Assembly (NCBI RefSeq): GCF_008728855.1
Contig: NZ_CP042906.1
Coordinates: 3,284,001 to 3,348,000, forward strand
Reading direction: 5' to 3'
DNA from: Hypericibacter terrae
Lineage (GTDB): Bacteria; Pseudomonadota; Alphaproteobacteria; Dongiales; Dongiaceae
Length of the DNA stretch: 64,000 nt
This document shows positions 4,763 to 29,099 of the stretch, one piece after another (within the stretch, counting starts at the first letter, position 1; each line of letters starts with the position of its first letter). Position numbers and translations under genes: made by a program. Under the pieces are notes generated by a model. It worked only from the letters and a program-made list of their open reading frames with translations. It was not told the DNA's origin and searched no databases.

Positions 4763-4938
4763 GACTGCGAACCTGACCAGACAACCAATGACCGCTGCGG
4801 CTCGAAAATCGAACCCGCCCTCGTCATGAGCCTACATCCCCGTCCAAGCCCCATGCCATACTGATGTCCGGGGATGTGTGGATTGACGGTGGGGCGACGG
4901 CAAGAAACAGTCGCCGCTGAATGAACTTTGGGGGCAGC

Positions 4939-12371: not shown

Positions 12372-12505
12372 GATGTTCGTCCCCCTGCTCGAATGACCGG
12401 CCCGGAGCGGTTTTGCTCTCTATGGCCGTCGCTATGGTCGGCGCCCGCGGTTCCGGGCGGCGTCGAAATGAGGCGGCGACGCTCGCGCCGCCGCCCCGGA
12501 AATTC

Positions 12506-13840: not shown

Positions 13841-13853
13841 GGCTGATCTCGCT

Positions 13854-14537
13854 TCAATAGGCGTCGGCGTTGTCGACATGGAAATTATAGAGCCGGCGCG
13901 CCGACCCGTAGCGCCTGAAGCGCTTCGCGTCGGCTTTGATCCCGGCGCGAGCCAGCAGTTTCTCGAGCTTGGCCAGATGGTGCGGCGTCATCTTCTTCTC
14001 GACGCAGTCCGCACCCAGGCTCTCGACCTTGCCCTGCACATAGAGGCGGGCCTCGTAGATGGAATCGCCGAGGCTCGAGCCGGCATCGCCGCAGACGACG
14101 AGGCTGCCGCCCTGCGCCATGAAGGCGCTCATATGGCCGACCGACCCGCCCACCACGATGTCGATGCCCTTCATCGAGATGCCGCAGCGCAAGCCCGCAT
14201 CGCCCTCGATCACGAGCAGGCCACCGCGCCCGGTGGCGCCGGCCGCGTCCGAGGCATTGCCCTTCACGCGCACTTCGCCGGACATCATGTTTTCGGCCAG
14301 GCCCACGCCGCAATGGCCGTTCACGAGGATGGTCGCTTCCTTGTTCATGCCGGCGCAGTAATAGCCGGGATGCCCGTCGATCGTGACCTCGATCGGCAGG
14401 GTCAGGCCGGCGCAGAGCGCATGCGCTCCCTTCGGATTGACGACGCGCCAGGCCTTCTCGTTGGTTTCCGGCGGCAGATGATGCAAACGGTCGTTGAGAT
14501 CGCGAACCGAGCTGTGGGCCAGATCGACAGTGATCAT
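13854..14537 (-). CDS. mgsB: N-methylglutamate synthase subunit B (GlxC/GltB C-terminal beta-helix domain)
   Basis: 227 aa. The ATG at 14537 overlaps the mgsA stop by four bases (ATGA), which fixes the start. The protein is the right-handed beta-helix (GXGXG) domain found at the C-terminus of glutamate synthase and in GlxC: repeated turns such as VNGHCGVGLAENMMSGEVRVKG, GRGGLLVIEGDAG, KGIDIVVGGSVGHM and GGSLVVCGDAGSSLGDS. In split systems it is a structural partner linking the amidotransferase (MgsA) and FMN (MgsC) subunits. It has no catalytic motif of its own. Confidence 0.9.
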   Translation of the reverse strand: MITVDLAHSSVRDLNDRLHHLPPETNEKAWRVVNPKGAHALCAGLTLPIEVTIDGHPGYYCAGMNKEATILVNGHCGVGLAENMMSGEVRVKGNASDAAGATGRGGLLVIEGDAGLRCGISMKGIDIVVGGSVGHMSAFMAQGGSLVVCGDAGSSLGDSIYEARLYVQGKVESLGADCVEKKMTPHHLAKLEKLLARAGIKADAKRFRRYGSARRLYNFHVDNADAY

Positions 14538-15442
14538 GCCGCGGCCTGCACATCCCAGGTGTAAACGACGGCCGGCGCCGGCGCCCAGACCTTGGCCTTG
14601 TCCGCGCCCGGCAGATTGGCGATCGAGCGATATTCCGAGGCCATCGCCACCCAATCGTCGGTTTCGGCCAGGACCGCCGGTTTGCAGGCGAAGGCATCAC
14701 GCAACACGGCGAAGCCGTTCCGCGTGCCCATGGTGAAGGTATAGAAGCCGTCCAGGTCTTTGAGGCCGGCCTCGAGCGCTTCGGCCAGGCTCGCCCCCTC
14801 GCTCAGGCGCTGCGCGAAATAGCGTGCCGCCACCTCGCTGTCGTTGTCGGTCTCGAACTCGTGGCCGCGATGCCGCAGCCAGCGGCGCAGATTGTTGTGG
14901 TTCGAGAGCGAGCCGTTATGCACGAGGCACATGTCCGAGGCCGCCGTGAAGGGATGCGAATGCTCGGTCGTGACCGCGCTCTCGGTCGCCATCCTGGTAT
15001 GACCGATGGCATGCGTGCCCTCCATCTTGGCGAGGCCGTAGCGGTCGGCGACCTGCTTGGGCAGGCCCATATCCTTGTAAACCTCCATCACCTGGCCATA
15101 GCCCATGATGCGGATTTCGGGATGATGCGCCTTGAGCCAGCCGCGAACATTCGCGTCCGGCGCCGAGACGGTCATGACCACGTGGTTGGCCTTGGTCTCG
15201 ATATCGACCTCGGCCTTGAGCGCCTCGCCGAGCGCGCCGCCGATCTCGCGCCAGTGGAAATGCGGGTCGGCATGGAACAGCGTCAGCTTCGAGTCCTTGC
15301 CCGTGACCGGCTTGTGATAGACCGCGATGCCCGCGCTGTCGGGGCCGCGCTCGGTCATCTCCACAAGCATATGGCTCAGATGCCGGCCGAGGCTGGGCCT
15401 CAAGGCCGGATTCTTGAGGAAGAGTCCGACGATTCCGCACAT
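14534..15442 (-). CDS. mgsA: N-methylglutamate synthase subunit A (GlxB, class II glutamine amidotransferase)
   Basis: 302 aa. The start at 15442 is set by the N-terminal nucleophile: MCGIVGLF puts Cys2 first after Met removal, as in all class II amidotransferases. Further motifs are RGPDSAGIAVY, GHTRMATESAV, HPF and VHNGSLSNHNNLRRWL, which form the glutaminase pocket. In this pathway it is thought to work on gamma-glutamylmethylamide. It follows the XRE regulator with a 111-nt gap that contains a palindrome and probably a promoter, and is coupled to mgsB by a 4-nt overlap. Confidence 0.92.
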   Translation of the reverse strand: MCGIVGLFLKNPALRPSLGRHLSHMLVEMTERGPDSAGIAVYHKPVTGKDSKLTLFHADPHFHWREIGGALGEALKAEVDIETKANHVVMTVSAPDANVRGWLKAHHPEIRIMGYGQVMEVYKDMGLPKQVADRYGLAKMEGTHAIGHTRMATESAVTTEHSHPFTAASDMCLVHNGSLSNHNNLRRWLRHRGHEFETDNDSEVAARYFAQRLSEGASLAEALEAGLKDLDGFYTFTMGTRNGFAVLRDAFACKPAVLAETDDWVAMASEYRSIANLPGADKAKVWAPAPAVVYTWDVQAAA

Positions 15443-15516
15443 GGGAAGATCCTTTCGGGAGTGCCCGACAAAAGTCCGGGGGACGATAGCCCAGGCGGGG
15501 CGGGGAATCAATGATA

Positions 15517-15542
15517 AGGAAACAATGTTTCCTGTCAGGAAA
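15517..15542. promoter_or_regulatory. Candidate operator upstream of mgsA
   Basis: A perfect inverted repeat AGGAAAC-aat-GTTTCCT at 15517-15533 is followed by another AGGAAA half-site at 15537-15542. It lies about 75 nt before the mgsA start and just past the XRE regulator stop. A GTTTCCTG octamer from it recurs before mgdA at 21553-21560. Binding by the XRE/cupin protein is inference. Confidence 0.4.
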
Positions 15543-15553
15543 TCGCTGCGGAA

Positions 15554-16276
15554 TCAGCCTTCTGCATCGCGCGGATAGCAGATGATCGAGAGGAACCGGA
15601 TCGGCAGCTTGCGCAGCTCGTCGGGACCGTGCGGCACGTCCGCATCGAAGAACAGCGAGTCGCCCGGCAGAAGCGTGTAGGTGCGGTCGCCATGGCGATA
15701 GCTGACCTCGCCCTCGAGCATGAAGATGAACTCGACGCCGTCATGCTGGAACAGCGGAAACACGTCGGAATCCGCGGTCAGGGTGATCATATAGGGCTCG
15801 ACCGAGATGCTCTTGCGCAGCGTATGGCCGAGCAGCTGGTACTGATGCCCGGCGCGCGTGCCGCGGCGCTCGATCTGCAAGCCCTGCCCCGCCTTGACGA
15901 AGGTGGCGTCGCGTTCCTCCTCGAAACGGCGGAAGAAGGCCGTGACCGGCACATGGAGCGCCACCGAGAGGGCCCGCAGGGTCGCCAGCGAGGGCGAGGT
16001 CATGCCGTTCTCGATCTTGGACAGCATGCCGGCCGAGAGCTCGGCTATCTTGGCGAGTTCGGCCACCGTCATGTTGAGCTTGCGTCGGAAGTCGCGCACC
16101 TCGCGCCCGATCGCCTCCTCGAGCCGGCCATGGCGCTTGTCGATCAGGCCGTGCGGGTCCTGGAACTCCTGCACCGTCTCCGACGCCGGACGTTTCGCGG
16201 GTTTCCGGGGCGCGGCCCCGCCCTTGCGCGCCTCCGATCCCGGCGCGCCCGCCCCGGTCTTGCGCTTGCCCTTCAC
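15554..16276 (-). CDS. XRE/cupin transcriptional regulator
   Basis: 240 aa from a GTG at 16276 that overlaps the mgdD stop (GTGA); the longer frame to 16360 lies inside mgdD. After a basic, Ala/Lys-rich N-terminus (about 1-45) comes an XRE helix-turn-helix (about 60-115: LNMTVAELAKIAELSAGML, IENGMTSPSLATLRAL) and a C-terminal cupin domain (about 165-235: VFPLFQHDGVEFIFMLEGEV, YTLLPGDSLFFDADVPHGP). Such two-domain regulators, like PuuR, often sense a small metabolite of the pathway they control. Its place between mgdD and mgsA makes it the likely regulator of methylamine use. Confidence 0.9.
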   Translation of the reverse strand: MKGKRKTGAGAPGSEARKGGAAPRKPAKRPASETVQEFQDPHGLIDKRHGRLEEAIGREVRDFRRKLNMTVAELAKIAELSAGMLSKIENGMTSPSLATLRALSVALHVPVTAFFRRFEEERDATFVKAGQGLQIERRGTRAGHQYQLLGHTLRKSISVEPYMITLTADSDVFPLFQHDGVEFIFMLEGEVSYRHGDRTYTLLPGDSLFFDADVPHGPDELRKLPIRFLSIICYPRDAEG

Positions 16277-17004
16277 CGCGCCTCGGCCAGACGGCGCAGC
16301 GCGCCCAGTCCGATCGGCTGGCCGTCGAATTCGGCCATCGCATCGACGAGGCAGCCCCACATATATTCCGCCGACGCGCTGTCGGTCAGCAGGTGATAGG
16401 CCGGCATCTCGCCGAAATAGTCGCGGATCAGGATGGCGCTGATCTTGGCGACCGAGGTCTGCGCGATCTGGCCCTGCTTGAATTTATGCGCGCGCAGATC
16501 GACGCCGCAGATCTTCGCGAACATCGCCGGCGCCTGCCAGCCCGAGATCATGAACCAGCAATGGCTCTCGGCGCGAGGCATCGGATAACCGATGAGCTTG
16601 CGCGGTTTCTCGGCCCCCCAGTTCCAGGCGCCGTTGAGCCGGTCGATCAGGCCGGCCTCGCCCTTGAGGCTGTCGATCAGGAAGATCTCCGTGGGCGCGA
16701 GCCTCGCCGCCAGCGAGCCATCGGCCTGGCGATAGGCCATGTTGCTGTCGGGCCCGATCATCATGCCCTGGGCGGTCAGCCATTCGACGGTGCCGGTGCC
16801 CTTGAAGCCGGTGCGCGGCAGGGGCGAGAGATCGGTCAGCGCAAGCCGCCGGCCGATGCCGACTTCCTCGTCGACGGAGCGGCCGAGCCGCATGGCGACC
16901 GCACTGTCGCGGATCGCTGCCCATTCGGCGCCCTTGGCGTCCAGCAGGCGATAGACATAGCTACGGCGGTTGAAGGCGGTCGGGGAGACGGTCGCACTGG
17001 CCAT
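16273..17004 (-). CDS. mgdD: N-methylglutamate dehydrogenase subunit D (sarcosine oxidase gamma-like)
   Basis: 243 aa. It matches the gamma subunit of heterotetrameric sarcosine oxidase, a T-protein-like fold that packs against the alpha subunit. Visible family segments include LTDLSPLPRTGFKGTG, a proposed core LIDRLNGAW, and a WFMISGWQAPAMFAKICGVDLRAHKF region towards the C-terminus, followed by SVAKISAILIRDY. It starts only 3 nt after mgdC and overlaps the regulator by 4 nt, so translation is coupled on both sides. It is longer than the typical gamma subunit (about 200 aa), with extra length near the N-terminus. Confidence 0.88.
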   Translation of the reverse strand: MASATVSPTAFNRRSYVYRLLDAKGAEWAAIRDSAVAMRLGRSVDEEVGIGRRLALTDLSPLPRTGFKGTGTVEWLTAQGMMIGPDSNMAYRQADGSLAARLAPTEIFLIDSLKGEAGLIDRLNGAWNWGAEKPRKLIGYPMPRAESHCWFMISGWQAPAMFAKICGVDLRAHKFKQGQIAQTSVAKISAILIRDYFGEMPAYHLLTDSASAEYMWGCLVDAMAEFDGQPIGLGALRRLAEAR

Positions 17005-17007
17005 GGC

Positions 17008-19926
17008 TTACATCTCCTGCCGCTTGTTCTCGGGGTCGAAGAACGGGATCGGCACCACCCGCGCCTGGATCAGCCGCCCGCCCGCGACCTTGATGTCGAA
17101 ATTCTTGCCGGGTTCGGCCTGGTCGGGCGCTACATAAGCCAGACCCACCACCCGGCCGAGCGACGGCGAGATCACGGCCGAGGTGACGCGGCCCAGGATC
17201 TCCGCTCCCCGCACCACCAGGTGACATTCCTCCGGCACCGGCGCATTGGCATCGTCGAGCGTGAACCCGACCAGCTTGCGCGTCAGGCCCGAGCGATTCT
17301 GGATGTCGATCGAGCGGCCGCCCATGAAGTAGGGCTTGGTCTTCGAGATCGCCCAGGCCATGTCGGCCTCGTAGGGATGCGTCAGCCCGTCCGTGTCCTG
17401 TCCGATGATGATATGGCCCTTCTCCAGGCGCAGCACGCGCTGGGCCTCGACGCCGAAGGGACGGATGCCGGCGGGCCGTCCCGCCTCCATCAGCTTGTCC
17501 CACAGGGCCTCGCCCATCGAGGCCGGCACATGGATCTCGTAGCCGAGCTCGCCGACGAAGCCGACGCGCATCAGCCGCGCCGGGATACCCGCGACCGTTC
17601 CCATCCGCACGCCCATATAGGGGAAGGCAGCGGCCGAGAGATCGACATCCGGGCAGAGCTTCTGCAACACCTCGCGCGACTTCGGACCCGCGAGATTGAC
17701 GCCGGCATAAGCCGCCGTGACGTTCGCCACGTCGACATCGAGGCGCCACTGCGAATTCCAGAACAGCATCAGGCGATAGACGCCGTCGACGCCGCTGGTG
17801 GTCGCGGTCACGTAGAAATGCTCTTCGCCGAAACGGCAGGCGACGCCGTCATCGATGATGGCGCCGCTCTGGTCGGTCATCAGCACATAGCGCGAGCGGC
17901 CGACCGGCTGCTTGGCATAGGCGAAGGTATAGAGGCGGTTGAGGAACTCGGCTGCGTCGGGCCCGCGCACGTCGAGCCCGCCCAGGGTCGAGACGTCGAT
18001 CAGCCCGACATTGTTGCGGACATTGCGGACTTCCTCGCGGATCGCCTGGTCGCGCTCTTCCTTCTTGCCGTAGAAGGCCGGGCGGTACCAGAGGCCCGCG
18101 GGCATCATGCGCGCGCCCAGCTCCAGATGGCGCCGATGCATCGCGGTGTGGCGCTCGGGCTCGAAGGTCCGGCCCGCCATGAGGCCGAATTTCTCCGGCC
18201 GGTAGGGCGGCCGCTGGGTCGTGACCGACATGGTCGCGATGTCGCGGCCGGTCTCCTTGGCGTCGATGCGCACCGTCGCCACCGCCGAATGGCGGCCCTG
18301 CGAGGGCCCCATGCTGACGGTGGTGTAGCGCTTCAGCAGCTCGACATGGTCGTAGCCGTCGGCGATGCCGTTCACCAGATCCTTGACCTGGAGGTCTTCG
18401 TCGAAATCGACGAAGTCCTTGCCCTTCTTGCTCGGGAAGATCGGCCAGGGATGGGTCACGCCGATGGCGCCCCGATCGCCCGGCGCCGAGGGCTCGCCGC
18501 CCACGGCGGCCCCGGCATCCTTCGCGGCGGCCCAGCCGGCGCGGCGGCCTTCGGCGATCACGGCATCGAGCGCATAGGTGCCGTTGACCGAGCCGGCCGC
18601 GAAGACATGGGCCGGCAGGACGCTGGGCGCAAACATGTGGCTGGCGCGGTCATAGGCGAACTTCGCGCCGATATGATGCAGGAGCTGGCCGGTCGGGCTG
18701 TAGCCGACCGACATGCAGAGCAGATCGCAGGGAATGGTGGCGAGCGCCGGCGAGAGCTCGCCCTCGCCCGTCACCTTGCCGACCAGGGCCGCCGTGATGT
18801 TGCGCTTGCCCACGCCATAGAAGGTCTCGGCCACCCCATGGCCCTGCAGGATCGAGACGCCGCGCGCATGGACCGCCTTGGCGAAGGCCGAACTGTCGGC
18901 CTCATTGCGAAGATCGACCACGGCCGCGACCTCGACGCCGGCATCGCCCAGATCGAGCGCCACGCCATAGCCGTCGGCATTGGCCGTCAGCACCACGGCG
19001 CGACGGCCGGGCCTCACGCCATAGAGCTTGATCAGGCGCTGCGCCGCCGAGCCCAGCATCACGCCCGGCAGGTCGTTGTTGTGGAACACCGCCGGCTGCT
19101 CGAGCGAGCCGGTCGCGACCACCACCGCCTTGGCGCGCAGCTTGTAGAGGCGATTACCCTTGATCACCGCCAGCCAATTGTCGGCGAAGAAGCCGTTGCA
19201 GGTGGCGTCGGTCAGGATCCGGATGTTCTGCGACGCGGCCAGCTCGGCCGCGAGCTCGCGCGAACGCGTCCTGCCCTGCTCGCCCGCCGCATCGAAGCGC
19301 GCATAGGAGAGCGAACCGCCGACGCGCGGGCCCTCGTCGATCAGGATCACCTCGAGGCCGGCCTTCGCCGCCTCGGACGCCGCCGCCATGCCGGCGGGGC
19401 CGGCACCGATCACCGCGACATCGGCGAAGAGATATTCCTTGTCGTAGTAGTCATGATGCGCGTGGACGTCGACCTTGCCCAGGCCGGCGATCTCGCGGAT
19501 CACCTTCTCCCAATGCGGCCAGGTCCATTTCGGCTTGAAGAAAGCCTTGTAATAGAAACCCACCGGGAGGAAGCGGCCGAGCCTCTCCATGAAGGAGAGC
19601 CGGTCCTGCTCGAGGCTGCCCTTGTAGTTCTGGCCCATCACGGCGAGGCCGGGCCGGATCGGATGCATGTCGGCCAGCACGTTGGGCTCGCCGCCGATCT
19701 GGACCAGCGTGTTCGCGTCCTGGCCGGCCATCGTCAGGATCCCGCGCGGCCGGTGATATTTGAAGGAGCGCGAGATCAGCCATTCGTCGTTGGCCGCGAG
19801 CGCGCTCGCGATCGTGTCGCCGACGAATCCCTGGAAGGGCCGGCCTTCGAAGGTGAAGGTGACCGGTTGGCCGCGGTCGATCAGCAGGCCGGCCGGTGCC
19901 GAAAGACGGTTGACCCCGTCGCTCAT
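17008..19926 (-). CDS. mgdC: N-methylglutamate dehydrogenase subunit C (sarcosine oxidase alpha-like)
   Basis: 972 aa. The ATG at 19926 overlaps the mgdB stop (ATGA). Domains in order: an N-terminal ferredoxin-like fold (about 1-100) that lacks the iron-sulfur cysteines; an NAD(P)/FAD Rossmann region with AVIGAGPAGMAAA (GxGxxG at 174-179) and a second one (VVLTANADGYGVAL); and from about 600 a folate-binding T-protein (GCV_T) domain with NVGLIDVSTLGGLDVRGPD and GELGYEIHVPAS. It oxidises N-methylglutamate with MgdA and passes the methyl group to THF as methylene-THF. The gene order identifies it as mgdC rather than soxA. Confidence 0.92.
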   Translation of the reverse strand: MSDGVNRLSAPAGLLIDRGQPVTFTFEGRPFQGFVGDTIASALAANDEWLISRSFKYHRPRGILTMAGQDANTLVQIGGEPNVLADMHPIRPGLAVMGQNYKGSLEQDRLSFMERLGRFLPVGFYYKAFFKPKWTWPHWEKVIREIAGLGKVDVHAHHDYYDKEYLFADVAVIGAGPAGMAAASEAAKAGLEVILIDEGPRVGGSLSYARFDAAGEQGRTRSRELAAELAASQNIRILTDATCNGFFADNWLAVIKGNRLYKLRAKAVVVATGSLEQPAVFHNNDLPGVMLGSAAQRLIKLYGVRPGRRAVVLTANADGYGVALDLGDAGVEVAAVVDLRNEADSSAFAKAVHARGVSILQGHGVAETFYGVGKRNITAALVGKVTGEGELSPALATIPCDLLCMSVGYSPTGQLLHHIGAKFAYDRASHMFAPSVLPAHVFAAGSVNGTYALDAVIAEGRRAGWAAAKDAGAAVGGEPSAPGDRGAIGVTHPWPIFPSKKGKDFVDFDEDLQVKDLVNGIADGYDHVELLKRYTTVSMGPSQGRHSAVATVRIDAKETGRDIATMSVTTQRPPYRPEKFGLMAGRTFEPERHTAMHRRHLELGARMMPAGLWYRPAFYGKKEERDQAIREEVRNVRNNVGLIDVSTLGGLDVRGPDAAEFLNRLYTFAYAKQPVGRSRYVLMTDQSGAIIDDGVACRFGEEHFYVTATTSGVDGVYRLMLFWNSQWRLDVDVANVTAAYAGVNLAGPKSREVLQKLCPDVDLSAAAFPYMGVRMGTVAGIPARLMRVGFVGELGYEIHVPASMGEALWDKLMEAGRPAGIRPFGVEAQRVLRLEKGHIIIGQDTDGLTHPYEADMAWAISKTKPYFMGGRSIDIQNRSGLTRKLVGFTLDDANAPVPEECHLVVRGAEILGRVTSAVISPSLGRVVGLAYVAPDQAEPGKNFDIKVAGGRLIQARVVPIPFFDPENKRQEM

Positions 19927-20231
19927 TTCTTTTCCTCGTTCGCCTTCGGCGCCGCACTGAACTCGACCCGGGATTTGAAGACCTCGCCCGCCGGATAGGT
20001 GCGCAGGATCTCGTCCGTCACCGTGTGGCGCTCGGCGATGAACCAGAAGGAGGTGGGCACGTGGCACCACCATTCGCGCACCACGCCGGCGGTGTTGTTC
20101 TCGATATGCACATACTCGGCCCATTCGCGGTCCGAGACTCGCGCGGGATCGGGCATCGGCTTCACTTCGCCGCCCCAGACGAACTCCGAGATGTTGCGCG
20201 GGCCGTTGAGCGGGCAGTTCATGATCTTCAT
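19923..20231 (-). CDS. mgdB: N-methylglutamate dehydrogenase subunit B (sarcosine oxidase delta-like)
   Basis: 102 aa, the normal size for SoxD-type subunits. The frame shows MNCPLNGPRNISEFVWGGE at the start and REWAEYVHIENNTAGVVREWW in the middle, the family pattern. In bacterial sarcosine oxidase the delta subunit binds zinc through two N-terminal Cys (CPxCG), a His and a Cys. Here the second Cys is Asn9, the His position is Cys56 and the last Cys is Thr60, so the zinc site appears lost. GGAGGGAA precedes the ATG, and the gene lies 16 nt after mgdA and overlaps mgdC by 4 nt. Confidence 0.9.
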   Translation of the reverse strand: MKIMNCPLNGPRNISEFVWGGEVKPMPDPARVSDREWAEYVHIENNTAGVVREWWCHVPTSFWFIAERHTVTDEILRTYPAGEVFKSRVEFSAAPKANEEKK

Positions 20232-20247
20232 GGGTTCCCTCCCTCGC

Positions 20248-21489
20248 TCAATGCCCGACCGAGGCCGCGCCCTTTTCGCCGACCTGCTTCATCTCTTCGA
20301 AGCGGGACAAGCGGAAGGGCTCGATCAGCTCGTGCGGTTTGTTGTTGGCGACGGTGTAGGACATGGTGAGACCGCAGACCGGCGTCGCCTTGAAGCCCCA
20401 GGTACCCCAGCCGGAATCGATATAGTAGTTCTCGAGCGGGGTGAGCCCCATGCAGGGGCTGAAATCGGGCGTCATGTCTGCCATGCCGGCCCATTGCCGG
20501 TTGAGCTTCATCTCGCCGAGGAAGGGCAAGAGCTCCAGCATGTGGCCCAGCAGGCCTTCCTTGAAATCGAGCGTCGAGCGCGTCGAATAGACGCCATAGG
20601 GGTCGGTCGATCCGCCCATCACCAGCTCGCCGCGCGAGGATTGCGAGATATAGACGTGCAGCGAGCCCGACACGATGATCTGGTCGAGGAAGGGCTTCAC
20701 CGGCAGCGAGACGCAGGCCTGCAGCGGGATGGTGCGGATCGGCAGCTTGAAGCCAGCCAGCTTCGCCACCAGCGAGCTCGATCCCGCCGTCGCCTGCAGC
20801 ACCTTATTCGCATAGACCGTGCCGCGGTTGGTGACGACGCCTTTGACCTTGCCGCTCTCCTGCAGGATCTCGGTCACCTCGGTGAGCTGATGGATCTCGA
20901 CGCCGCGCCGCGTGGCGCCGCGGCCATAGCCCCAGGCGACCGCGTCATGGCGCGCGATCGAGCCCGGCGGATGATAGAGCGCGCCCAGGATCGGATAGCG
21001 CACATCCTCCGACATGTTAAGCACCGGACAGAGCTTGTGGATCTCGTCCGGCCAGATCAGCTCGGAATCCACACCCAGATGCTTGTTGACCTCGGCGCGC
21101 CAGCGGCTGGTGCGGATCGCGGCGTCGGTGTGGGCCAGCGTAAAATGGCCGCGCTCGGAATAGAGGATGTTGTAGTCGAGGTCCTGGCTCAGATCCTGAT
21201 AGAGCTTGACCGAGGTGTCGTAGAACCTGACGCCCTCGGGCGTCAGGTAGTTCGAGCGGATGATGGCGGTGTTGCGCGCCGTGTTGCCGCCCGCGAGATA
21301 CCCCTTCTCGAGGATCGCCACGTTGGTGATGCCGTAGTCGCGCGACAGGTAGTAAGCCGTCGCCAGCGCGTGGCCGCCGCCGCCGATGATGACGACGTCG
21401 TAGCTGGGCTTCAGATCCCGGGCGAGCGGGAAGTGGCGCTCGGCCGGGTAGGTCTTGCTAAGCCCGTATTTCAGCAGCCCGAAGGGCAT
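20248..21489 (-). CDS. mgdA: N-methylglutamate dehydrogenase subunit A (sarcosine oxidase beta-like)
   Basis: 413 aa. A DAO-family flavoprotein: the dinucleotide loop YDVVIIGGGGHALATAYYL is at 30-48, LEKGYLAGGNTARNTAIIRSNYL follows (60-82), and ARHDAVAWGYGRGA at about 179-192 contains the His (about 181) that probably carries covalent FMN. The C-terminal GLTPLENYYIDSGWGTWGFKATPVCG is typical of SoxB. This subunit holds the amine oxidation site. It is the first gene of the mgd operon, with a 237-nt divergent promoter region upstream. Order and context, rather than sequence, separate it from sarcosine oxidase soxB. Confidence 0.92.
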   Translation of the reverse strand: MPFGLLKYGLSKTYPAERHFPLARDLKPSYDVVIIGGGGHALATAYYLSRDYGITNVAILEKGYLAGGNTARNTAIIRSNYLTPEGVRFYDTSVKLYQDLSQDLDYNILYSERGHFTLAHTDAAIRTSRWRAEVNKHLGVDSELIWPDEIHKLCPVLNMSEDVRYPILGALYHPPGSIARHDAVAWGYGRGATRRGVEIHQLTEVTEILQESGKVKGVVTNRGTVYANKVLQATAGSSSLVAKLAGFKLPIRTIPLQACVSLPVKPFLDQIIVSGSLHVYISQSSRGELVMGGSTDPYGVYSTRSTLDFKEGLLGHMLELLPFLGEMKLNRQWAGMADMTPDFSPCMGLTPLENYYIDSGWGTWGFKATPVCGLTMSYTVANNKPHELIEPFRLSRFEEMKQVGEKGAASVGH

Positions 21490-21726: not shown

Positions 21727-22335
21727 ATGACGGCCGGCGACCGGCGAAAGAATGTCGTGCTGATGGAACCGGCGGCGGAAGCGCTGCGCGACGAGTTCCT
21801 CGGCTGGCAATGCCGGCTGCGGCAGCTTTCGGTGCGCGAAGGGCTGGGACGCCCCTCCAGCGGCATGCGGGCCCGCGTCAGCACCCTCGACGGCACCGAA
21901 CTCGCCCCGGCCGTCACCCTGCTGGTCATGCGCGAGGAGCCGGAGGAAAGCACCCAGCAGTTCCGCTTCCAGGTGCAGAAGACCCAGGACCCGGTCGAGC
22001 GTTATGAGAAAGCGCTGGAGATCCTGTCGGCCTGGTACTATCAGCGCCCGCGCGAGTTCAGCGACATCATGACCGGCCTGTTCGGGCCGGGATCGGCCTT
22101 CGCCGACCAACTGCTGCTGCATGGGCGTTGCGAGCTCGAATTCATCGAATATGCCAAAGGCTATCGCATCCCCTGCTCGGTGCTCGAGCTGGCCGAGAAC
22201 GATGCCTTCTATCAGGCGACCTATTGGCACAACCGCCTCTTCAACCCGAACATGCCGGCCGGCGTCCGGGTGCTGTCCTTTACGCCGGACTGGACCCATT
22301 CCGCCGATTTCGAGGTCGAGACCGGCGAAGAGTGA
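21727..22335 (+). CDS. Conserved-looking hypothetical protein divergent from mgdA
   Basis: 202 aa from the ATG at 21727, preceded by CTCGAGGGA; the frame is open further upstream (to 21583) but that part looks non-coding. I do not recognise the family. The protein is soluble, with no signal or membrane segment, acidic and rich in Trp/Tyr/Phe. A basic, charged first third (EALRDEFLGWQCRLRQLSVR) is followed by PAVTLLVMREEPEE, ERYEKALEILSAWYYQRPREFSD and GYRIPCSVLELAENDAFYQATYWHNRLFNP. It sits between the mgd and second glx clusters on the opposite strand, so a role in amine metabolism is possible but unproven. Confidence 0.7.
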   Translation: MTAGDRRKNVVLMEPAAEALRDEFLGWQCRLRQLSVREGLGRPSSGMRARVSTLDGTELAPAVTLLVMREEPEESTQQFRFQVQKTQDPVERYEKALEILSAWYYQRPREFSDIMTGLFGPGSAFADQLLLHGRCELEFIEYAKGYRIPCSVLELAENDAFYQATYWHNRLFNPNMPAGVRVLSFTPDWTHSADFEVETGEE

Positions 22336-22568: not shown

Positions 22569-22596
22569 AGGGCCGGACTCAGACGAGTCCGGCCCT
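22569..22596. terminator. Hairpin terminator at the end of the second glx cluster
   Basis: A perfect 12-bp inverted repeat AGGGCCGGACTC (22569-22580) and GAGTCCGGCCCT (22585-22596) with a 4-nt loop, 30 nt past the stop of the 148-aa gene. Neither side has a strong T-run, so it may work in both directions as a weak terminator or RNA 3' stabiliser. Confidence 0.6.
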
Positions 22597-22626: not shown

Positions 22627-23073
22627 TTAGAACTTCCGATAGGCCTTGTTGAGGTCGACCATCGGGTGCTTGCGGGACATCTGGAACTTGATCAGCAGCT
22701 CGCGCGCGATCATGTCGCGATCCTGCTGGTTGTCGGGCAGTTTCACGCCCGGCGGAATCGTAACCCAGCCATTGACGTTGCGGTCGAACACCGCGGCACG
22801 GCCTTCCTCGTAGCCCATATGGACGTCCTCGAGCCAGTTGAGGTCGTCCCAGCCCATCACTTCCATGTATTTCTTCAGGAAGGGCGTCAGGCGGCTGTAG
22901 TCCGGCACGAGATTGACGTCGTAGCGATAGCCGATGTGCTGGCCGATTTCCTTCTCGCGGTTGGAATCGAGGCCCTTCCCCTTGAGGTATTTGTCGACAT
23001 CCTCTTTCTTCGGGGTGGCCTTCGCGGTCTTCACGACCTTCATGACCGGCTTCTTCTGCGTCGGTTTTGCCAT
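22627..23073 (-). CDS. Unrecognised 148-aa protein, last gene of the second glx cluster
   Basis: 148 aa from the ATG at 23073, which has GAGGAG 8 nt upstream and follows the GlxD stop by 11 nt. I do not recognise a family. The first 25 residues are basic and Lys/Pro-rich (KPTQKKPVMKVVKTAKATPKK), like a disordered tail. Then comes a compact domain with VDKYLKGKGLDSNREKEIGQ, VNLVPDYSRLTPFLKKYMEV, DDLNWLEDVHMGYEEGR and a C-terminal ELLIKFQMSRKHPMVDLNK. No Cys, no signal, no membrane segment. Tight linkage suggests it is a subunit or partner of the GlxBCD-like complex. Confidence 0.78.
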   Translation of the reverse strand: MAKPTQKKPVMKVVKTAKATPKKEDVDKYLKGKGLDSNREKEIGQHIGYRYDVNLVPDYSRLTPFLKKYMEVMGWDDLNWLEDVHMGYEEGRAAVFDRNVNGWVTIPPGVKLPDNQQDRDMIARELLIKFQMSRKHPMVDLNKAYRKF

Positions 23074-23084
23074 CGGGGCTCTCC

Positions 23085-24467
23085 TCAGTACCGCGTCATG
23101 TCGGGTCGGCCGACCGTGTGCTGCGAGCCGGCCAGCGGCACCATGGCGAGCGCGGAGGCTTCCATGGTGAGGGCTGCGAGGTCTTCCGGCTCGAGGCTGT
23201 GCACGTTGGTCTTGCCGCAGGCGCGCGCCATCATCTGGCACTCGATGGCAAGGCAGTGCAGGAAGTTGTAGACGCGCTCGGCCGCCTCGTCGGGGTCGAG
23301 GCGCTTGCGCAGGACCGGGTCCTGCGTCGCCACGCCGACCGGGCAGCGGCCCGTATGGCAGTGGTAGCAGTAGCCCGCCTCGACGCCGATCTCCTTCTCG
23401 AAGTCGGCCTCGGGGATGTCCTTGTTGCAGTTGAGCGCCATCAGCGCCGAATGGCCGATCGCGACGGCATCGGCGCCGAGCGCGATCGCCTTGGCCACGT
23501 CCGCGCCGTTGCGGATGCCGCCGGCATAGACCAGGCTGATCTGGCCGGTCATGCCGACATCGTCGAGCGCCTTGCGGGCCTGGCGGATCGCGGCGATGCC
23601 GGGCACCCCGGTCTCCTCGGTCGCGATATGCGGACCCGCGCCGGTGCCGCCTTCCATGCCGTCGATATAGATCGAATCCGGGCCGGTCTTGGCCGCCATG
23701 CGGACGTCGTCATAGACGCGCGCCGCACCCAGCTTGAGCTGGATCGGAATCTCGCCATTGGTGGCTTCGCGAATCTCCTGGATCTTCAGCGCCAGATCGT
23801 CCGGCCCCAGCCAGTCGGGATGGCGCGCCGGCGAACGCTGGTCGATGCCGGCCGGCAGCGAGCGCATTTCCGCCACCTGGTCCGTCACCTTCTGCCCCAT
23901 CAGATGGCCGCCGAGGCCGACCTTGCAGCCCTGGCCGATGAAGAACTCGCAGGCGTCGGCGAGGCGCAGATGATGCGGGTTGAAGCCGTAGCGCGACTGG
24001 ATGCACTGATAGAACCATTTCGACGAATAGCGGCGCTCGTCGGGAATCATGCCGCCTTCGCCCGAGCAGGTCGCGGTGCCGGCCATGGTGGCGCCGCGGG
24101 CGAGCGCGATCTTGGCCTCGAAGGAGAGCGCGCCGAAGCTCATGCCGGTGATGTAGATCGGGATATCGAGCACCAGCGGGCGCTTGGCCTTGGGGCCGAT
24201 CACGGTCTGGGTCAGGCACTTCTCGCGATAACCCTCGATCACGAAGCGGGTCAGCGTGCCCGGGAGGAAGGTCAAGTCGTCCCAGGTCGGGATCTTCTTG
24301 AAGAGCGAGAAGCCGCGCATGCGATAGCGGCCGAGCTCGGACTTGATATGGATGTCGTCGATGACCGTCGGCGGGAAGATGAAACTCTTGCCCAGCAGAC
24401 TCTTGTTGCGCGACGACGGCTTCTTGGCCGGCGCGGCAGCGGGTACTTTCTTGCGTTCTCTCGCCAT
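23085..24467 (-). CDS. GlxD-like glutamate synthase FMN/Fe-S subunit (second set)
   Basis: 460 aa, paralogous to mgsC at 12506-13840. FMN-domain motifs: TGMSFGALSFEAKIALARGA, GQGCKVGLGGHLMGQK, IDGMEGGTGAGPH, AGGIRNGADVAKAIALGADAVAIG. Unlike mgsC it keeps a cysteine cluster near residue 385 (YCYHCHTGRCPVGVATQDP, C-x2-C-x4-C), the place of the 3Fe-4S cluster in GltB, and has an extra LHCLAIECQ segment. This suggests a real redox step with an electron donor. A basic N-terminal extension (about 30 aa) precedes the domain. The substrate is unknown; '(archaeal-type) glutamate synthase' is the usual label. Confidence 0.9.
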   Translation of the reverse strand: MARERKKVPAAAPAKKPSSRNKSLLGKSFIFPPTVIDDIHIKSELGRYRMRGFSLFKKIPTWDDLTFLPGTLTRFVIEGYREKCLTQTVIGPKAKRPLVLDIPIYITGMSFGALSFEAKIALARGATMAGTATCSGEGGMIPDERRYSSKWFYQCIQSRYGFNPHHLRLADACEFFIGQGCKVGLGGHLMGQKVTDQVAEMRSLPAGIDQRSPARHPDWLGPDDLALKIQEIREATNGEIPIQLKLGAARVYDDVRMAAKTGPDSIYIDGMEGGTGAGPHIATEETGVPGIAAIRQARKALDDVGMTGQISLVYAGGIRNGADVAKAIALGADAVAIGHSALMALNCNKDIPEADFEKEIGVEAGYCYHCHTGRCPVGVATQDPVLRKRLDPDEAAERVYNFLHCLAIECQMMARACGKTNVHSLEPEDLAALTMEASALAMVPLAGSQHTVGRPDMTRY

Positions 24468-24501
24468 GAGCGAATTCCTTTTGTGCGATCTGTCGCGGGG
24501 C

Positions 24502-25338
24502 TTAGAGGATGAGTTTCTTCTCGGTGGGCTCCAGATTGTCGTAGTTCCAGAGCTGCTTCCCGGCGACGATCTTCTGCATGTTCTTGACGCCCTTGGGCGC
24601 CTCGAGCCCGTACATCTTGAGCTTGCGGCTGAGCCAGGAGACGTCGAGATCGGTCATCTCGCCCGGCACGGCGTCCACGCCCAGCCCGTCGATCTTGCCG
24701 CCGACATAGATCGTGCCGTCATACATGGAATCGCCGAGGTTCTTGCCGGCGTCGCCCAGCACAACCATGCGGCCGCGCTGCATCATGAAGCCGCAGAAGG
24801 CGCCGCAGCGCCCGCCGACGATGATGGTCCCGCCCTTCATGTCGATGCCCATGCGGGCACCCACATCGCCCATGCAGACCAGGTCGCCGCCGCGCAAGGC
24901 GGCGCCGAAGGTCGAGCCTGCGTTCTTCTCGATCACGATCGTCCCGGCCAGCATGTTCTCCGCGCAGGACCAGCCCACGCGGCCCTTGATGCGGATGTTC
25001 GGCCCGTCGATCAGGCCGCAGCCGAAATAGCCCAGGCTGCCTTCGATATGCAGGTTGAGCTTGTTGAGGATGCCGACCGCGAGCGAATGCTTGGCACCGG
25101 GATTCTTCAGGACGATGGTGCCGTAGCCCTTGCTCATCAGGTCGCGGATCTTGAGATTGACGTCGCGCGGCGCGAGCGGCCCACAATCGAGCTCGGCCCG
25201 CTTGTTGAAGTCGACGTCGAACGCCTCCGGATAGGTGAAGTTCTGCTCTTCGGCGGGCGTGAAGAATCGCTGCTGGGTGCGCCCGGAGAGCTGCTCCGTG
25301 TGCATCCCCATATCCTGGGATTTGGTTCTGAGGGCCAT
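24502..25338 (-). CDS. GlxC-like beta-helix (GXGXG) subunit (second set)
   Basis: 278 aa. The ATG at 25338 shares one base with the upstream GlxB stop (TAATG), which fixes the start. After an N-terminal extension of about 50 residues absent from mgsB, it has the GltB C-terminal beta-helix pattern: GRVGWSCAENMLAGTIVIEKNAG, GDVGARMGIDMKGGTIIVGGRCG and GRMVVLGDAGKNLGDSMYDGTIYVGG. It should bridge the amidotransferase and FMN subunits. It is a diverged paralogue of mgsB, not a recent duplicate. Confidence 0.9.
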   Translation of the reverse strand: MALRTKSQDMGMHTEQLSGRTQQRFFTPAEEQNFTYPEAFDVDFNKRAELDCGPLAPRDVNLKIRDLMSKGYGTIVLKNPGAKHSLAVGILNKLNLHIEGSLGYFGCGLIDGPNIRIKGRVGWSCAENMLAGTIVIEKNAGSTFGAALRGGDLVCMGDVGARMGIDMKGGTIIVGGRCGAFCGFMMQRGRMVVLGDAGKNLGDSMYDGTIYVGGKIDGLGVDAVPGEMTDLDVSWLSRKLKMYGLEAPKGVKNMQKIVAGKQLWNYDNLEPTEKKLIL

Positions 25339-26282
25339 TATGCGCTCTTCCAAACGCGAACCTCGCCCTCATAGGGGTCGAAGGTATCGATTTCATGGGG
25401 GAATACGCTGCGGATCGCCACCTCTTCCGAGGCGAGACAGATGAACTTCTCGCTTTCGTAGAGGACCATGGGCTTCGCGGCCATCACATCCTTGGCCATG
25501 CCGAGCGAATCCGAGGTCGCGACCAGATAGGTGAAGACGCCATCGAGCTCGTCGATGGAATCCGTCATCGCGTCCTTGAGCTCGGCGCCCTGCTGCATCT
25601 TGTCGGCGAGATAGACGGCGATCAGCTCGGAATCGCAGTTCGACATGAAGCGGTGGCCGCGCCGCTCGAGCGCGCGGCGCCCGTTCCAATAGTTGGTGAG
25701 CTGGCCGTTATGGACCACCGACACGTCGGCGAACGGATAGGCCCAGTAGGGATGGGCCGACCGGATGTCGACATCGGATTCGGTCGCCATGCGGGTGTGA
25801 CCCAGCGCATGGGTCCCGGTGAAGCCCTTGAGGTGATACTGCTCGGCCACGCGCGCGGCGTCGCCGAGATCCTTCACCAGCTCGAGCCCATGGCCCATGG
25901 ACAGGATCTCGGCCCCCTCCACGTCCTCGATGAAGTCGGCGAGCTTGCGCCGGTCGCCGGCATAGTCGATCCGGTAGCGGAAGGCGTATTCGGTGGCGTC
26001 GGTGGTCTCGAGGATCCGTCCGCCCAGTTCCTTGATGCGCTTGTCGACTTCGTTCCGGCGCTCCTTGACCTGGTCGTGGATCTTGAAACCTTTCAGCATC
26101 TCGTCCTGCTCGGCCACCTTGAAGCGCAACATCAGCTCGTTGCCCTTCAGCGGCTTGCCGTAAAGCGCGTAGCCCGTCGAATCCGGCCCGCGATGCTTCA
26201 GCGACTGCAACATCGCCGTCATCTCGGTGCCGATATCGCCGGTCTTGCCATGTCGATGGATCAATCCCGCAATTCCGCACAT
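25338..26282 (-). CDS. GlxB-like class II glutamine amidotransferase (second set)
   Basis: 314 aa. MCGIAGLIHRHG places the nucleophile Cys2 directly after the start. RGPDSTGYALYG, LGHTRMATESDVD, HPYWAYPF and VHNGQLTNYWNGRRAL complete the glutaminase pattern, and the NCDSELIAVYLADK segment matches purF-like domains. It would release ammonia, or transfer an amine, from a gamma-glutamyl amide for the GlxC/GlxD partners. It starts 51 nt after the glutamine-synthetase-like gene. It is clearly a paralogue of mgsA but only moderately similar by eye. Confidence 0.92.
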   Translation of the reverse strand: MCGIAGLIHRHGKTGDIGTEMTAMLQSLKHRGPDSTGYALYGKPLKGNELMLRFKVAEQDEMLKGFKIHDQVKERRNEVDKRIKELGGRILETTDATEYAFRYRIDYAGDRRKLADFIEDVEGAEILSMGHGLELVKDLGDAARVAEQYHLKGFTGTHALGHTRMATESDVDIRSAHPYWAYPFADVSVVHNGQLTNYWNGRRALERRGHRFMSNCDSELIAVYLADKMQQGAELKDAMTDSIDELDGVFTYLVATSDSLGMAKDVMAAKPMVLYESEKFICLASEEVAIRSVFPHEIDTFDPYEGEVRVWKSA

Positions 26283-26333
26283 CTCGCTCTCTCTTTCTCC
26301 TATGCCGGTACCCGCGTACTTCGCGAAGGTTGA

Positions 26334-27800
26334 TTACGGCAGATAGTCCCAATATTGCTGGAGGTCCCAGTTGGTGACGGTGGCGTTGAACTTCTCCCAC
26401 TCGTCGCGCTTGTAATGCGTGAAGACCTTGTACATCTCGTCGGGCATCGCCTTCTTGATGACCTCGTCCTTCTCGAGCTCCTCGAGCGCCAGGCCCAGCG
26501 ACATCGGCAGCTTCTTGACCTTCTTGCCGGCCGCCATCGCCGCATAGATGTTGCGCTCTTCGGGCTCGCCCGGATCGATCTTGTGGGTGATGCCGTCGTC
26601 GAAGGCCTGCAGGATGCCGGCCGCCATCAAATAGGGGTTCACCGTCGAATCCACCGAGCGGTATTCGAAGCGGCCCGGGGCGGAGATGCGCAGCGCACAG
26701 GTGCGGTTCTGATAGCCCCAGTCGGCATAGACCGGCGCCCAGAAGCCCGTGTCCCACAGGCGGCGATAGGAATTGACGGTGGAGGAGCCGATTGCGGTCA
26801 AGGCACCCACATGCTTGATGATGCCGCCGATGCAGTTGAGGCCGATCGGACCCGGTTTCGACTGGCCCTTGAGCGGCAGGAAGGTGTTCTCGCCGCCCTT
26901 GAGATAGGCGAAGTTCTCTTCCATGCCCGGCAGGTTGTCGAGCCCGAGCTTGTTGACCTTGTCCTCGCCGCCCTTCCACAGGGAGATGTTGTGGTGGCAG
27001 CCATTGGCCGAGACGCCCATGAAGGGCTTGGCCATGAAGCAGGCGATGAGATTGAACTCGCGCGCGACCTGGGCGCAGATCTGGCGATAGGTCGTCAGGC
27101 GGTCGGCCGTGCGCAGGCAGTCGTCGAACATGAAATTGAGCTCGAGCTGGCCCGGCGCGTCCTCGTGATCGCCCTGGATCATGTCGAGGCCCATGGCGCG
27201 CGAATATTCGATCGCGCGCATGAAGACCGGACGCAGGCTCTCGAACTGGTCGATGTGATAGCAGTTCGGCTTGGAGAAGCCGCCATCGGGCAGACCGTCG
27301 GCGCCCTTCTTGAGCCACATCATCTCCGGCTCGCAGCCGTGACGCATGTGGAGACCCTTGTGCTTCTTCTTGAACTCCTCATGGAGGATCCGGAGATTGC
27401 CGCGGCAGTCCGAGGTCAGATGCCCGCCCGGATTGACCCGTTCCTCGCGATTGCGGAAGCAGGTGCAGAAGACGCGCGCGACGCGCTTGTCCCAGGGCAG
27501 CTGGCAGAAGGTCTCGGGGTCGGGAATGCCGACCAACTCGGAGGCCTCGGGGCCATAGCCGATATAATTCTTGAAGCGGTCGACGAAGAGATTGGCGGTC
27601 GAGCCATAGACCAGCTGGAAGCCGCGCTCGGCGATGCTCTCCCAATGATCCGCCGGGACGCCCTTGCCGACGATGCGGCCGGTCACCGACACGAACTGAT
27701 AATAGATGTACTGGATACCAAGCTCGTTGATCTTGGCCCGTACCTGCTTGACGAGTTCCTTTCGCCCCTTTTGCGAGACGTGGGCTTCCAAGTCGGTCAT
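26334..27800 (-). CDS. Glutamine-synthetase-like ligase lacking the ammonium-site Asp (second set)
   Basis: 488 aa from the ATG at 27800 (GGGGAG upstream). The glutamine synthetase fold is clear: HGCEPEMMW (metal-binding Glu region), GDHEDAPGQLELNF, ANGCHHNISLW and GRFEYRSVDSTVNPYL. In ordinary synthetases and in gmaS here the N-terminal domain has a (V/T)DxxG motif whose Asp binds ammonium; this protein has FVSVTG with Ser38 at that place. It is about 50 residues longer than gmaS. I infer a gamma-glutamyl-amine ligase for an unknown amine, first gene of the second cluster. It could also be a non-catalytic relative. Confidence 0.85.
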   Translation of the reverse strand: MTDLEAHVSQKGRKELVKQVRAKINELGIQYIYYQFVSVTGRIVGKGVPADHWESIAERGFQLVYGSTANLFVDRFKNYIGYGPEASELVGIPDPETFCQLPWDKRVARVFCTCFRNREERVNPGGHLTSDCRGNLRILHEEFKKKHKGLHMRHGCEPEMMWLKKGADGLPDGGFSKPNCYHIDQFESLRPVFMRAIEYSRAMGLDMIQGDHEDAPGQLELNFMFDDCLRTADRLTTYRQICAQVAREFNLIACFMAKPFMGVSANGCHHNISLWKGGEDKVNKLGLDNLPGMEENFAYLKGGENTFLPLKGQSKPGPIGLNCIGGIIKHVGALTAIGSSTVNSYRRLWDTGFWAPVYADWGYQNRTCALRISAPGRFEYRSVDSTVNPYLMAAGILQAFDDGITHKIDPGEPEERNIYAAMAAGKKVKKLPMSLGLALEELEKDEVIKKAMPDEMYKVFTHYKRDEWEKFNATVTNWDLQQYWDYLP

Positions 27801-28322
27801 GGCTGCGTGTTCTCCCCTACAAACATTTTTCGTTGTCCAGGTCTCCAGGACGGAGCCGGCGCCAGTTTCCTCGACTGCCGCACCTCGCCCAAGCGCGAAA
27901 ACGACTGAACCGGTTGCGCTTTCGAGCCGCCTTTTGCCGGTCGGCCCGGGCAACCCTGCCCAATCAAACCAATTTCATACCTCTCCTTGGCCATGCCGGA
28001 TGACCGGGATCGACAAGCCCCGCGGCAGCGTCTTTCGACTCCTGGAACAGCCCGGCCACCGCGGCACCAAACCGGATCGGACGCGGCCGAAATCCGGCCG
28101 CGGACGAGATCCAATCAGGCGCATCGGGAGGAACTGTCATGAGGGCTCGGGACGCAGGCGGATGCTTGGGACCGTTGCACTTTCCCGACACCGGCCCGGC
28201 GCTCACGGCGGCCCGGGACCGGATCCGCCCCAGGCGCCGCCGCTCCGGACTTGATCGGAAGGCCCAATTAGTGAAACATAAGCCCAGCCGGTTTCAAACC
28301 ACTATTTTCCAAAGGCACAGAA
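27801..28322. promoter_or_regulatory. Divergent promoter region between the second glx cluster and its GntR regulator
   Basis: 522 nt with no convincing gene. The last 60 nt before the GntR start are locally AT-richer and hold a perfect palindrome GGTTTCAAACC (28290-28300) and an upstream GTGAAAC (28271-28277). A regulator of this family would be expected to bind such a site. No other structure was recognised in the rest of the region. Confidence 0.4.
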
Positions 28323-29099
28323 ATGGCCCGCATTGGTGGTCGGCCGTTGAAGGAGCGCAGCGAAGCTCCGGCCATTCTGCTGCCCCGCAACGAGCCCCGC
28401 GCCATCGCCGATCCCATGCGCGGCTCGGCCTGGATCACGCAGCAGCTCCGTCAGGCGATCACCGAGGGCGGCCTTCGCCATGCCGAGAAGCTGCCGGCGG
28501 AACGCCAGCTCGCCGAGATCTTCGGCGCCTCGCGCACCACGGTGCGCAGCGCGCTCAACCAGCTCGAGGCCGAACGGCTGGTGACGCGCCGGGTCGGCAG
28601 CGGCACCTTCGTGAATTACCAGCCCCGCTCGCCGCAGGACGACGTCGCCGAGCTCACCAGCCCGCTAGAGCTGATCGATGTCCGCCTCGCGGTCGAGCCT
28701 CATATGGTGCGGCTGGCCGTGCTCAATTCGACCTCGCGCGAGCTGGAGCGCTTGAACGAGGCGCTGGCCGAGATGGAGCGGTCGAGCGTCGATTCCGAGA
28801 CCTTCACGCTGCTCGACGAGCAGTTCCATCTCTGCATCGCAGAATGCAGCCGCAATCCGCTGATGGTCTCGCTCTACCGGCAGATCAACGATGTCCGCAC
28901 CCACGCCCAGTGGAACGCGATGAAGGACAAGGTGCTGACGATCGAGCGGATCGCCGAATATAACCGGCAGCACCGCACCCTGGTCGAGGCGATCCAGGCG
29001 CGCGATGTCGAGAGCGCGGTCGCGATCGTGACCAATCACCTGCATTACGCGCGCCGCCAGTTGCTGGGTGCCGGCGCCAATGTCGGCGGCGAGGCCTAG
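28323..29099 (+). CDS. GntR (FadR subfamily) transcriptional regulator
   Basis: 258 aa. After about 35 variable residues comes a GntR winged helix-turn-helix (about 38-100: AWITQQLRQAITEGGL, LPAERQLAEIFGASRTTVRSALNQLEAERLVTRRVGSGTFV). It is followed by an FCD all-alpha effector domain (about 115-250) with the metal-site pattern DEQFHLCIAECSRNPLM and NRQHRTLVEAIQARD...HLHYAR. It is divergent from the second glx/GS-like cluster, 522 nt away, and is its likely regulator. An inner ATG at 28416 is a possible alternative start. Confidence 0.9.
   Translation: MARIGGRPLKERSEAPAILLPRNEPRAIADPMRGSAWITQQLRQAITEGGLRHAEKLPAERQLAEIFGASRTTVRSALNQLEAERLVTRRVGSGTFVNYQPRSPQDDVAELTSPLELIDVRLAVEPHMVRLAVLNSTSRELERLNEALAEMERSSVDSETFTLLDEQFHLCIAECSRNPLMVSLYRQINDVRTHAQWNAMKDKVLTIERIAEYNRQHRTLVEAIQARDVESAVAIVTNHLHYARRQLLGAGANVGGEA

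Follow-up and report, generated by a model that had tools for sequence, protein, structure and literature searches.

orf148, which encodes 148 residues and closes the second of two paralogous glx operons in the window (the whole 64,000-nucleotide stretch of DNA analysed here), is genuine and strongly conserved, and its co-occurrence with the gene just upstream shows it to be functionally locked to GlxD2, one subtype of the glutamate-synthase-like GlxD proteins. The evidence is best read as pointing to a subunit: the product of orf148 is probably an obligate, non-redox fourth subunit, or a permanent assembly partner, of a second-type N-alkylglutamate synthase, GlxB2-GlxC2-GlxD2, for methylated amines. 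Its physical binding, the substrate and its role inside the complex are what we infer from the evidence below; possibly, too, the operon stands in for dimethylamine monooxygenase.

Organization of the two operons

The second operon, set 2, runs on the minus strand from 27.8 to 22.6 kb in the order GS2-GlxB2-GlxC2-GlxD2-orf148. GS2 (26334-27800, from an inferred inner ATG, the ORF list giving a TTG at 27953) is a glutamine-synthetase-family ligase with the amine pocket of GmaS; GlxB2 (25338-26282) is a class II glutamine amidotransferase beginning Met-Cys, like Ntn amidotransferases; GlxC2 (24502-25338, again from an inferred inner ATG, in place of a listed TTG at 25353) is a GXGXG domain protein (PF01493); and GlxD2 (23085-24467) has the FMN-type glutamate synthase domain PF01645 and a C-x2-C-x4-C motif. 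Between the GlxD2 stop codon (23085-23087) and the ATG of orf148 (22627-23073, minus strand) lie 11 nt (23074-23084), GGAGAGCCCCG, with the Shine-Dalgarno sequence GGAG; the earlier note's description of a 148-residue frame 11 nt behind GlxD with a good ribosome site thus agrees in both coordinates and GGAG. On the 3' side of orf148 a GC-rich 12-bp hairpin (22569-22596, minus strand; -34 kcal/mol for a 67-nt stretch, z -4.5) resembles a terminator by position only: it has no proper T run, and a separate terminator search did not include it among its terminator-like sites. A GntR-type regulator gene, a conserved neighbour, diverges from GS2 (28323-29099, plus strand), and a conserved protein gene converges with orf148 (21727-22335, plus strand; 202 residues from an inferred inner ATG), its product matching nothing in Pfam or NCBIfam. 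In two genomes of the genus Ruegeria this protein of about 200 residues adjoins Tmm.

Set 1, XRE-GlxB1-GlxC1-GlxD1-GS1, from 16360 down to 11064, has no orf148 and adjoins soxBDAG-like genes and a formate-tetrahydrofolate ligase-like gene, the latter named by sight. GS1 matches PDB entry 7cql at 635 bits (3e-190), making it a true GmaS; 7cql we take to be the Rhodovulum GmaS of PMC7948447. The canonical N-methylglutamate set (GmaS, GlxBCD1, XRE and soxBDAG-like genes) occupies 11064-21489 on the minus strand, directly downstream of the second operon. Set 2 itself was considered as the canonical operon and dropped, since the true GmaS (GS1) and GlxBCD1 sit downstream of it.

A conserved core behind a variable tail

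orf148 is present once in the source genome. Its product matched nothing in Pfam or NCBIfam at E<=1, nor in PHROGs, in keeping with the earlier note, which could name no family for it. When the 67 members of alignment A1 were scanned against Pfam (E<=1), the sole match below 0.01 was to HC2 (histone-H1-like), in two members, the better at 8.3e-07. Relatives are nonetheless plentiful, at least 411 being found by tblastn in bacterial genome contigs. The protein consists of a variable N-terminal tail (residues 1-24) and a conserved core of 124 residues; the core is 74-92% identical (median 80%) to that of 66 aligned relatives, and 54 columns of the 67-sequence alignment are invariant, with no Cys conserved. 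At 60 loci, which were chosen by orf148 score and so favour it, median identity is 86% for GlxD2, 76% for orf148, 72% for GS2, 70% for GlxC2 and 65% for GlxB2.

Tails have a median identity of 8% (51 relatives), and a net charge of +6 or more is seen in 7 of the 58 in alignment A2, which omits L006, L012, L013, L022 and L206-L208, all with Lys-rich tails. The term 'basic-tailed' in the earlier note therefore describes the Lys-rich N-terminus of the window protein but not a trait of the family. Among the relatives, those at L012, L022 and L208 have Lys/Ala-rich tails of up to about 80 residues, from starts chosen by script.

AlphaFold2 models of the window protein and of a tail-less relative agree on a helix, three strands and two helices, with block mean pLDDT of 85-96 from residue 61 on in the former (61-148) and from residue 41 in the latter. 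The compact domain of the earlier note holds for residues 61-148 but not for the near-invariant core residues 46-54, which have pLDDT below 50. The near-invariant segment GQHIGYRYDVN is mostly modelled below 50 in both proteins, which would suit a segment that folds upon a partner. Comparison of the two models with the PDB gave no convincing match (best Foldseek E 1.0; best VIA Z 2.6, rmsd 5.1 over 57 residues), and a missing match is not evidence of a new fold. Two candidates were rejected: TLAP2, a PDB sequence match (E 0.0023 and 0.0085) confined to a single short stretch and unsupported, and a double-stranded-RNA-binding-domain likeness (VIA Z 2.6), too weak and not reproduced with the tail-less model.

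orf148 accompanies GlxD2, not GlxD in general

Among the best 80 of the 411 or more tblastn relatives, GlxD2 lies directly upstream on the same strand in 79, and the 80th locus (L007) begins at a contig end; wherever enough upstream DNA was available, the five-gene order was intact (60/60). By their labels the loci come mostly from Alphaproteobacteria, Gammaproteobacteria or Proteobacteria not placed further; Betaproteobacteria and Latescibacterota contribute one each.

An even sample of 385 genomes of the same class, searched with a profile, has orf148 in 37, one copy each; a sample of the phylum, queried with one protein, has it in 2 of 398, too sparse to use. GlxD proteins in the 385 genomes (E<=1e-90) fall into classes 78-100% identical to the window protein (GlxD2, 38 genomes), 51-56% (GlxD1, 54 genomes) and 41-43% (11 genomes), this third class being set apart before counting, as were FAD oxidoreductases at 40-41% (G016, G446) and GS proteins at 31-42%. 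All 37 orf148 genomes carry GlxD2 at 78% or more (Fisher P 7e-51), and the GlxD2 of the one GlxD2 genome that lacks orf148 (G549) ends 90 bases from a contig end. Both genes share a contig in 35 of the 37, 5-259 nt apart between aligned edges, contig ends splitting the other two. GlxD1 is also present in 19 of the 38 GlxD2 genomes; in the 35 of its 54 genomes that lack GlxD2, orf148 is absent throughout.

Linkage thus recurs in distant genomes, and a population of homologues living mainly away from glx genes was not seen. The partner is the GlxD2 subtype alone rather than GlxD as a whole; the earlier note's proposal that the protein is part of the complex stands as a functional partnership, well supported by the linkage, from which a physical subunit would be a further step. 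orf148 serves as a clean single-gene marker of the second operon type, and surveys of gmaS or mgs genes may mix the two types.

Predicted chemistry of GS2 and GlxBCD2

RhGmaS numbering was transferred to GS1 with the one of three offsets that fits all 13 published residues up to position 191, the mapping reaching about 230. The methylamine pocket given for RhGmaS in the text available from PMC7948447 comprises Lys30, Tyr147, Gln175, Asp177, Glu179, Glu186 and Asn188. GS2 keeps all seven, as well as Glu122 and Glu124; it has Val at the position of Asp50 of ammonia-using GS (Ala48 in GmaS) and Ile at Tyr174, and positions 189 and 191 vary among aromatics. With the GmaS pocket kept and the ammonium Asp lost, GS2 should be an alkylamide synthetase and so should use an alkylamine. 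Its amine may differ from that of GmaS, since its identity to the seven GmaS-like proteins compared is just 29-35%; among themselves six of the seven are 56-72% identical and the last (Aquabacterium) is 39-42%. GS2 is also about 50 residues longer than GmaS, had no PDB match at 1e-60, does not fall with GmaS by pairwise identity or PDB search, and shares the window with a separate, true GmaS.

Set 2 resembles MgsABC in having homologous GlxB, GlxC and GlxD in the same order beside a GmaS-family ligase and a regulator, and differs from it in a longer GlxC2 N-terminus, an invariant Cys motif, the additional orf148, and a GlxD2 sharing 51-56% identity with the GlxD1 class, a comparison made without a sequence known from purified Mgs. 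With glutamate synthase GltB it shares the Ntn amidotransferase, FMN and GXGXG parts and the Cys triad of GlxD2; unlike GltB it is split into three genes and is followed by orf148, and no GltD gene was found in the window operon (22627-27953).

The motif C-x2-C-x4-C-PVG is kept in all 111 readable GlxD2 sequences (two others are cut off, and some share a genome), whereas of 8 readable set 1 GlxD proteins only those of L085, L192 and L226 have the triad; GlxD1 of the window (12506-13879) is one of the 5 without it. In glutamate synthase such cysteines bind a [3Fe-4S] cluster, with a different spacing in GltB. Their presence in GlxD2 suggests electron input from outside, and the difference in the triad may reflect a shift of electron supply within canonical Mgs. 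orf148, having no conserved Cys, is unlikely to be the electron carrier itself.

Methylated-amine genes often adjoin the operon

Neighbouring ORFs were clustered around 82 loci and the window, giving 83 sources, or 81 distinct ones once two duplicates are set aside (L001 repeats the source genome, L002 that of L003); as flank lengths vary, the counts are lower bounds. The GntR-type regulator recurs in at least 50 sources and the protein of about 200 residues in at least 48 (46 of the 81 distinct). Tdm is a neighbour in at least 28 (the one member scanned hits the NCBIfam equivalog for TMAO demethylase at 1174 bits, above cut-off), a DAO-family FAD oxidoreductase in at least 27, an ammonium transporter family protein in at least 25, a carbon-nitrogen hydrolase in at least 24 and Tmm in at least 13 (the one member scanned hits the trimethylamine monooxygenase equivalog at 851 bits, above cut-off). 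Parts of a glycine-betaine-type transporter, called TmoXVW from their place, occur in at least 10, 10 and 7. Two Ruegeria-genus genomes show the order FAD oxidoreductase-GS2-GlxB2-C2-D2-orf148-hydrolase-unknown-Tmm-TmoXVW-Tdm.

Counted at E<=1e-100, Tdm occurs in 35 of the 385 class genomes (29 above the curated cut-off; the match in G474 is partial), GlxD2 being present in 27 of the 35 (Fisher P 1e-25). A true GmaS is present in 30 of the 38 GlxD2 genomes, mostly beside GS2. Of the 19 GlxD2 genomes without GlxD1, 12 have GmaS and 7 do not. Since 8 of those 12 have no other GlxD-like gene (E<=1e-90), the remaining 4 having one at 41-43%, GlxBCD2 is the candidate N-methylglutamate synthase there; in the 7 that lack GlxD1 and GmaS alike, GS2 is the candidate ligase. 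In genome G601, GmaS precedes GlxB2C2D2-orf148 and no GS2 was found within the 27 kb examined; together with the GmaS count, this arrangement indicates that GlxBCD2-orf148 probably takes monomethylamine too. A methylated-amine role for the operon is thus well supported by its context and by the pocket of GS2.

A probable fourth subunit of a proposed N-alkylglutamate synthase

On the reading we prefer, GS2 (or GmaS) would use ATP to attach a small alkylamine to glutamate at its gamma-carboxyl, GlxB2 would release the amine inside the complex, and at the FMN of GlxD2 the amine would be coupled to the glutamate skeleton, GlxC2 forming a structural or channel domain. orf148 might dock through its GQHIGYRYDVN segment and stabilise either the whole assembly or the way it meets the donor that supplies electrons to the Cys cluster of GlxD2. 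The reaction would yield an N-methylated glutamate, demethylated by flavin dehydrogenases. Several points weigh against this scheme. A gene conserved at this place could encode a regulator or chaperone rather than a subunit. In Methyloversatilis, the MgsABC locus tags in Table 3 of PMC5023235 are contiguous from mgsC to mgdA, which implies that related chemistry needs no orf148. Moreover, 11 of 38 GlxD2 genomes lack Tdm, 19 also have GlxD1, and in the source genome Tdm and the FAD oxidoreductase lie about 0.88 Mb and 0.2 Mb from the operon.

Alternatives

Two alternatives differ from the fourth-subunit reading in substrate only. The first, which is quite possible though we hold it with reserve, makes the operon the dimethylamine step of bacteria without dmm, with orf148 helping the synthase to handle a secondary amine: GS2 would form gamma-glutamyl-dimethylamide, GlxBCD2-orf148 would turn it into N,N-dimethylglutamate, the linked FAD oxidoreductase would take off one methyl group and so yield N-methylglutamate, and MgdABCD would finish. 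The distribution of dimethylamine monooxygenase supports this reading. We searched with PF11927 the 75 of the 385 class genomes that carry orf148, GlxD1, GlxD2 or Tdm, reading each match in its neighbourhood. PF11927 alone proved a misleading marker, matching in 21 genomes (18 strongly), of which only 9 have contiguous dmmABC; G067 was among those dropped by the neighbourhood check. Contiguous dmmABC occurs in none of the 38 GlxD2 genomes against 9 of the 37 others, all 9 with GlxD1 and GmaS, and among Tdm genomes in 0 of 27 with GlxD2 against 5 of 8 without. Taking families as units (42 in all), GlxD2 occurs in 20 and dmm in 9, with none in common (P=0.0011); of the 19 families with Tdm, 13 have GlxD2 and 5 have dmm, again without overlap (P=0.0005). 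Among the genomes behind the 80 contig loci, 50 chosen for spread were likewise searched; none has dmmABC, at least three (L003, L014, L055) being also in the class sample, and all 8 PF11927 matches are 23-30% paralogues without DmmA or DmmB.

The FAD oxidoreductase tracks GlxD2, occurring in 33 of the 38 GlxD2 genomes against 5 of the 37 others, and a 1.2-Mb genome, G580, that is SAR11-like solely in its size, its GC (32% in the stretch examined) and its gene content has TmoX, Tdm, FAD oxidoreductase, the operon with its orf148, Amt and GmaS in that order. SAR11 strain HTCC1062 uses TMAO as sole nitrogen source without dmmDABC, for which the available text of PMC8918994 suggests an unknown Dmm isoenzyme; in that of Lidbury et al. 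(2017, PMC5520151), SAR11 lacks dmmDABC and a 'metabolic bottleneck' is described, TMAO being demethylated by SAR11 and other marine bacteria without these genes. RhGmaS accepts dimethylamine weakly: the Km column in PMC7948447 gives 16.07 x 10^3 for it and 26.94 for methylamine (unit taken as uM). The operon and DmmABC may hold the same place in the route from TMA through TMAO to DMA, and no genome searched here had both; they have no sequence relation, and Dmm is an oxygenase where the operon would use ATP-dependent glutamate adducts.

Against this, the exclusivity of dmm is a correlation, and lineage-biased. In Ruegeria, the genus of L079, orf148 is in 2 of 54 genomes, DmmC in 18 and both in none, which has a chance probability of 0.44 and is too few to weigh. 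Three of the 8 Tdm genomes without the operon (G067, G628, G697) also lack dmm, and 5 genomes have the FAD gene but no GlxD2. The synthase follows GmaS, a methylamine enzyme, in G601, and the true GmaS in 30 of 38 GlxD2 genomes argues against a purely dimethylamine role. Our literature search found no paper in which 'dimethylglutamate' and 'dimethylamine' occur together. The dimethylamine extension is attractive but unproven. In its fullest form, which we offer as a tentative conjecture, GS2-GlxB2C2D2-orf148 would be an undescribed oxygenase-free dimethylamine route, with orf148 as its signature subunit, replacing dimethylamine monooxygenase in trimethylamine degraders without dmmABC, SAR11-like bacteria included. 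The amine would be captured as a gamma-glutamyl amide and transferred to the alpha position, and flavin dehydrogenases would demethylate the resulting N,N-dimethylglutamate. The operon, as marked by orf148, is at any rate a concrete and testable candidate for the missing dimethylamine step of TMAO users without dmmDABC.

The second, which we consider rather unlikely, makes the operon an isofunctional second N-methylglutamate synthase for monomethylamine, not dimethylamine, with orf148 as a lineage-specific stabilising subunit. It would fit the GmaS of 12 of the 19 GlxD1-less operon genomes and the soxBDAG homologues directly after the operon in L017, L053 and G569. SAR11 is also a methylamine oxidiser, and Sun et al. 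(2011, PMC3160333) proposed that its glnT-glxBCD genes encode N-methylglutamate synthase, with no small neighbour mentioned in the text available. Yet GlxD1 is already there in 19 of the 38 operon genomes and a true GmaS in 30, and neither explains the missing dmm.

That orf148 is instead a separate regulator, chaperone or maturation factor for the GlxD2 cluster or flavin is unlikely: it is a small, last gene with basic tails in some lineages, no conserved redox residues and no fold match, as such a factor might be, but no family match of its core hints at DNA binding, and its conservation equals that of enzyme subunits. A true ammonia-assimilating GS-GOGAT variant, for which the GS and GOGAT domains and the neighbouring ammonium transporters might speak, is very improbable and is ruled out as the main reading by GS2, which lacks Asp50 and retains the GmaS pocket.

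Further occurrences of glx genes

A literature search for SAR11_1312, 1313 and 1316 (orf148 itself having no name to search by) returned PMC3160333 alone, without 1312 in its available text; the R. pomeroyi cluster is described in PMC13390433. Among plasmid records, 463 match GlxD, all at less than 60% identity, and in 267 of them the match spans 80% or more of the query; none matches orf148. Plasmids of Paracoccus aminophilus and Methylobacterium carry GlxB-GlxC-GlxD-glnT of the set 1 kind, that of Methylobacterium beside dmmABC. One virus-labelled contig, L233 (IMGVR_UViG_3300006306_000019), has at 4587-5354 a different N-terminus fused in frame to the end of GlxD2, followed by orf148; phage DNA and SAR11-like DNA seem to have been joined here during assembly.
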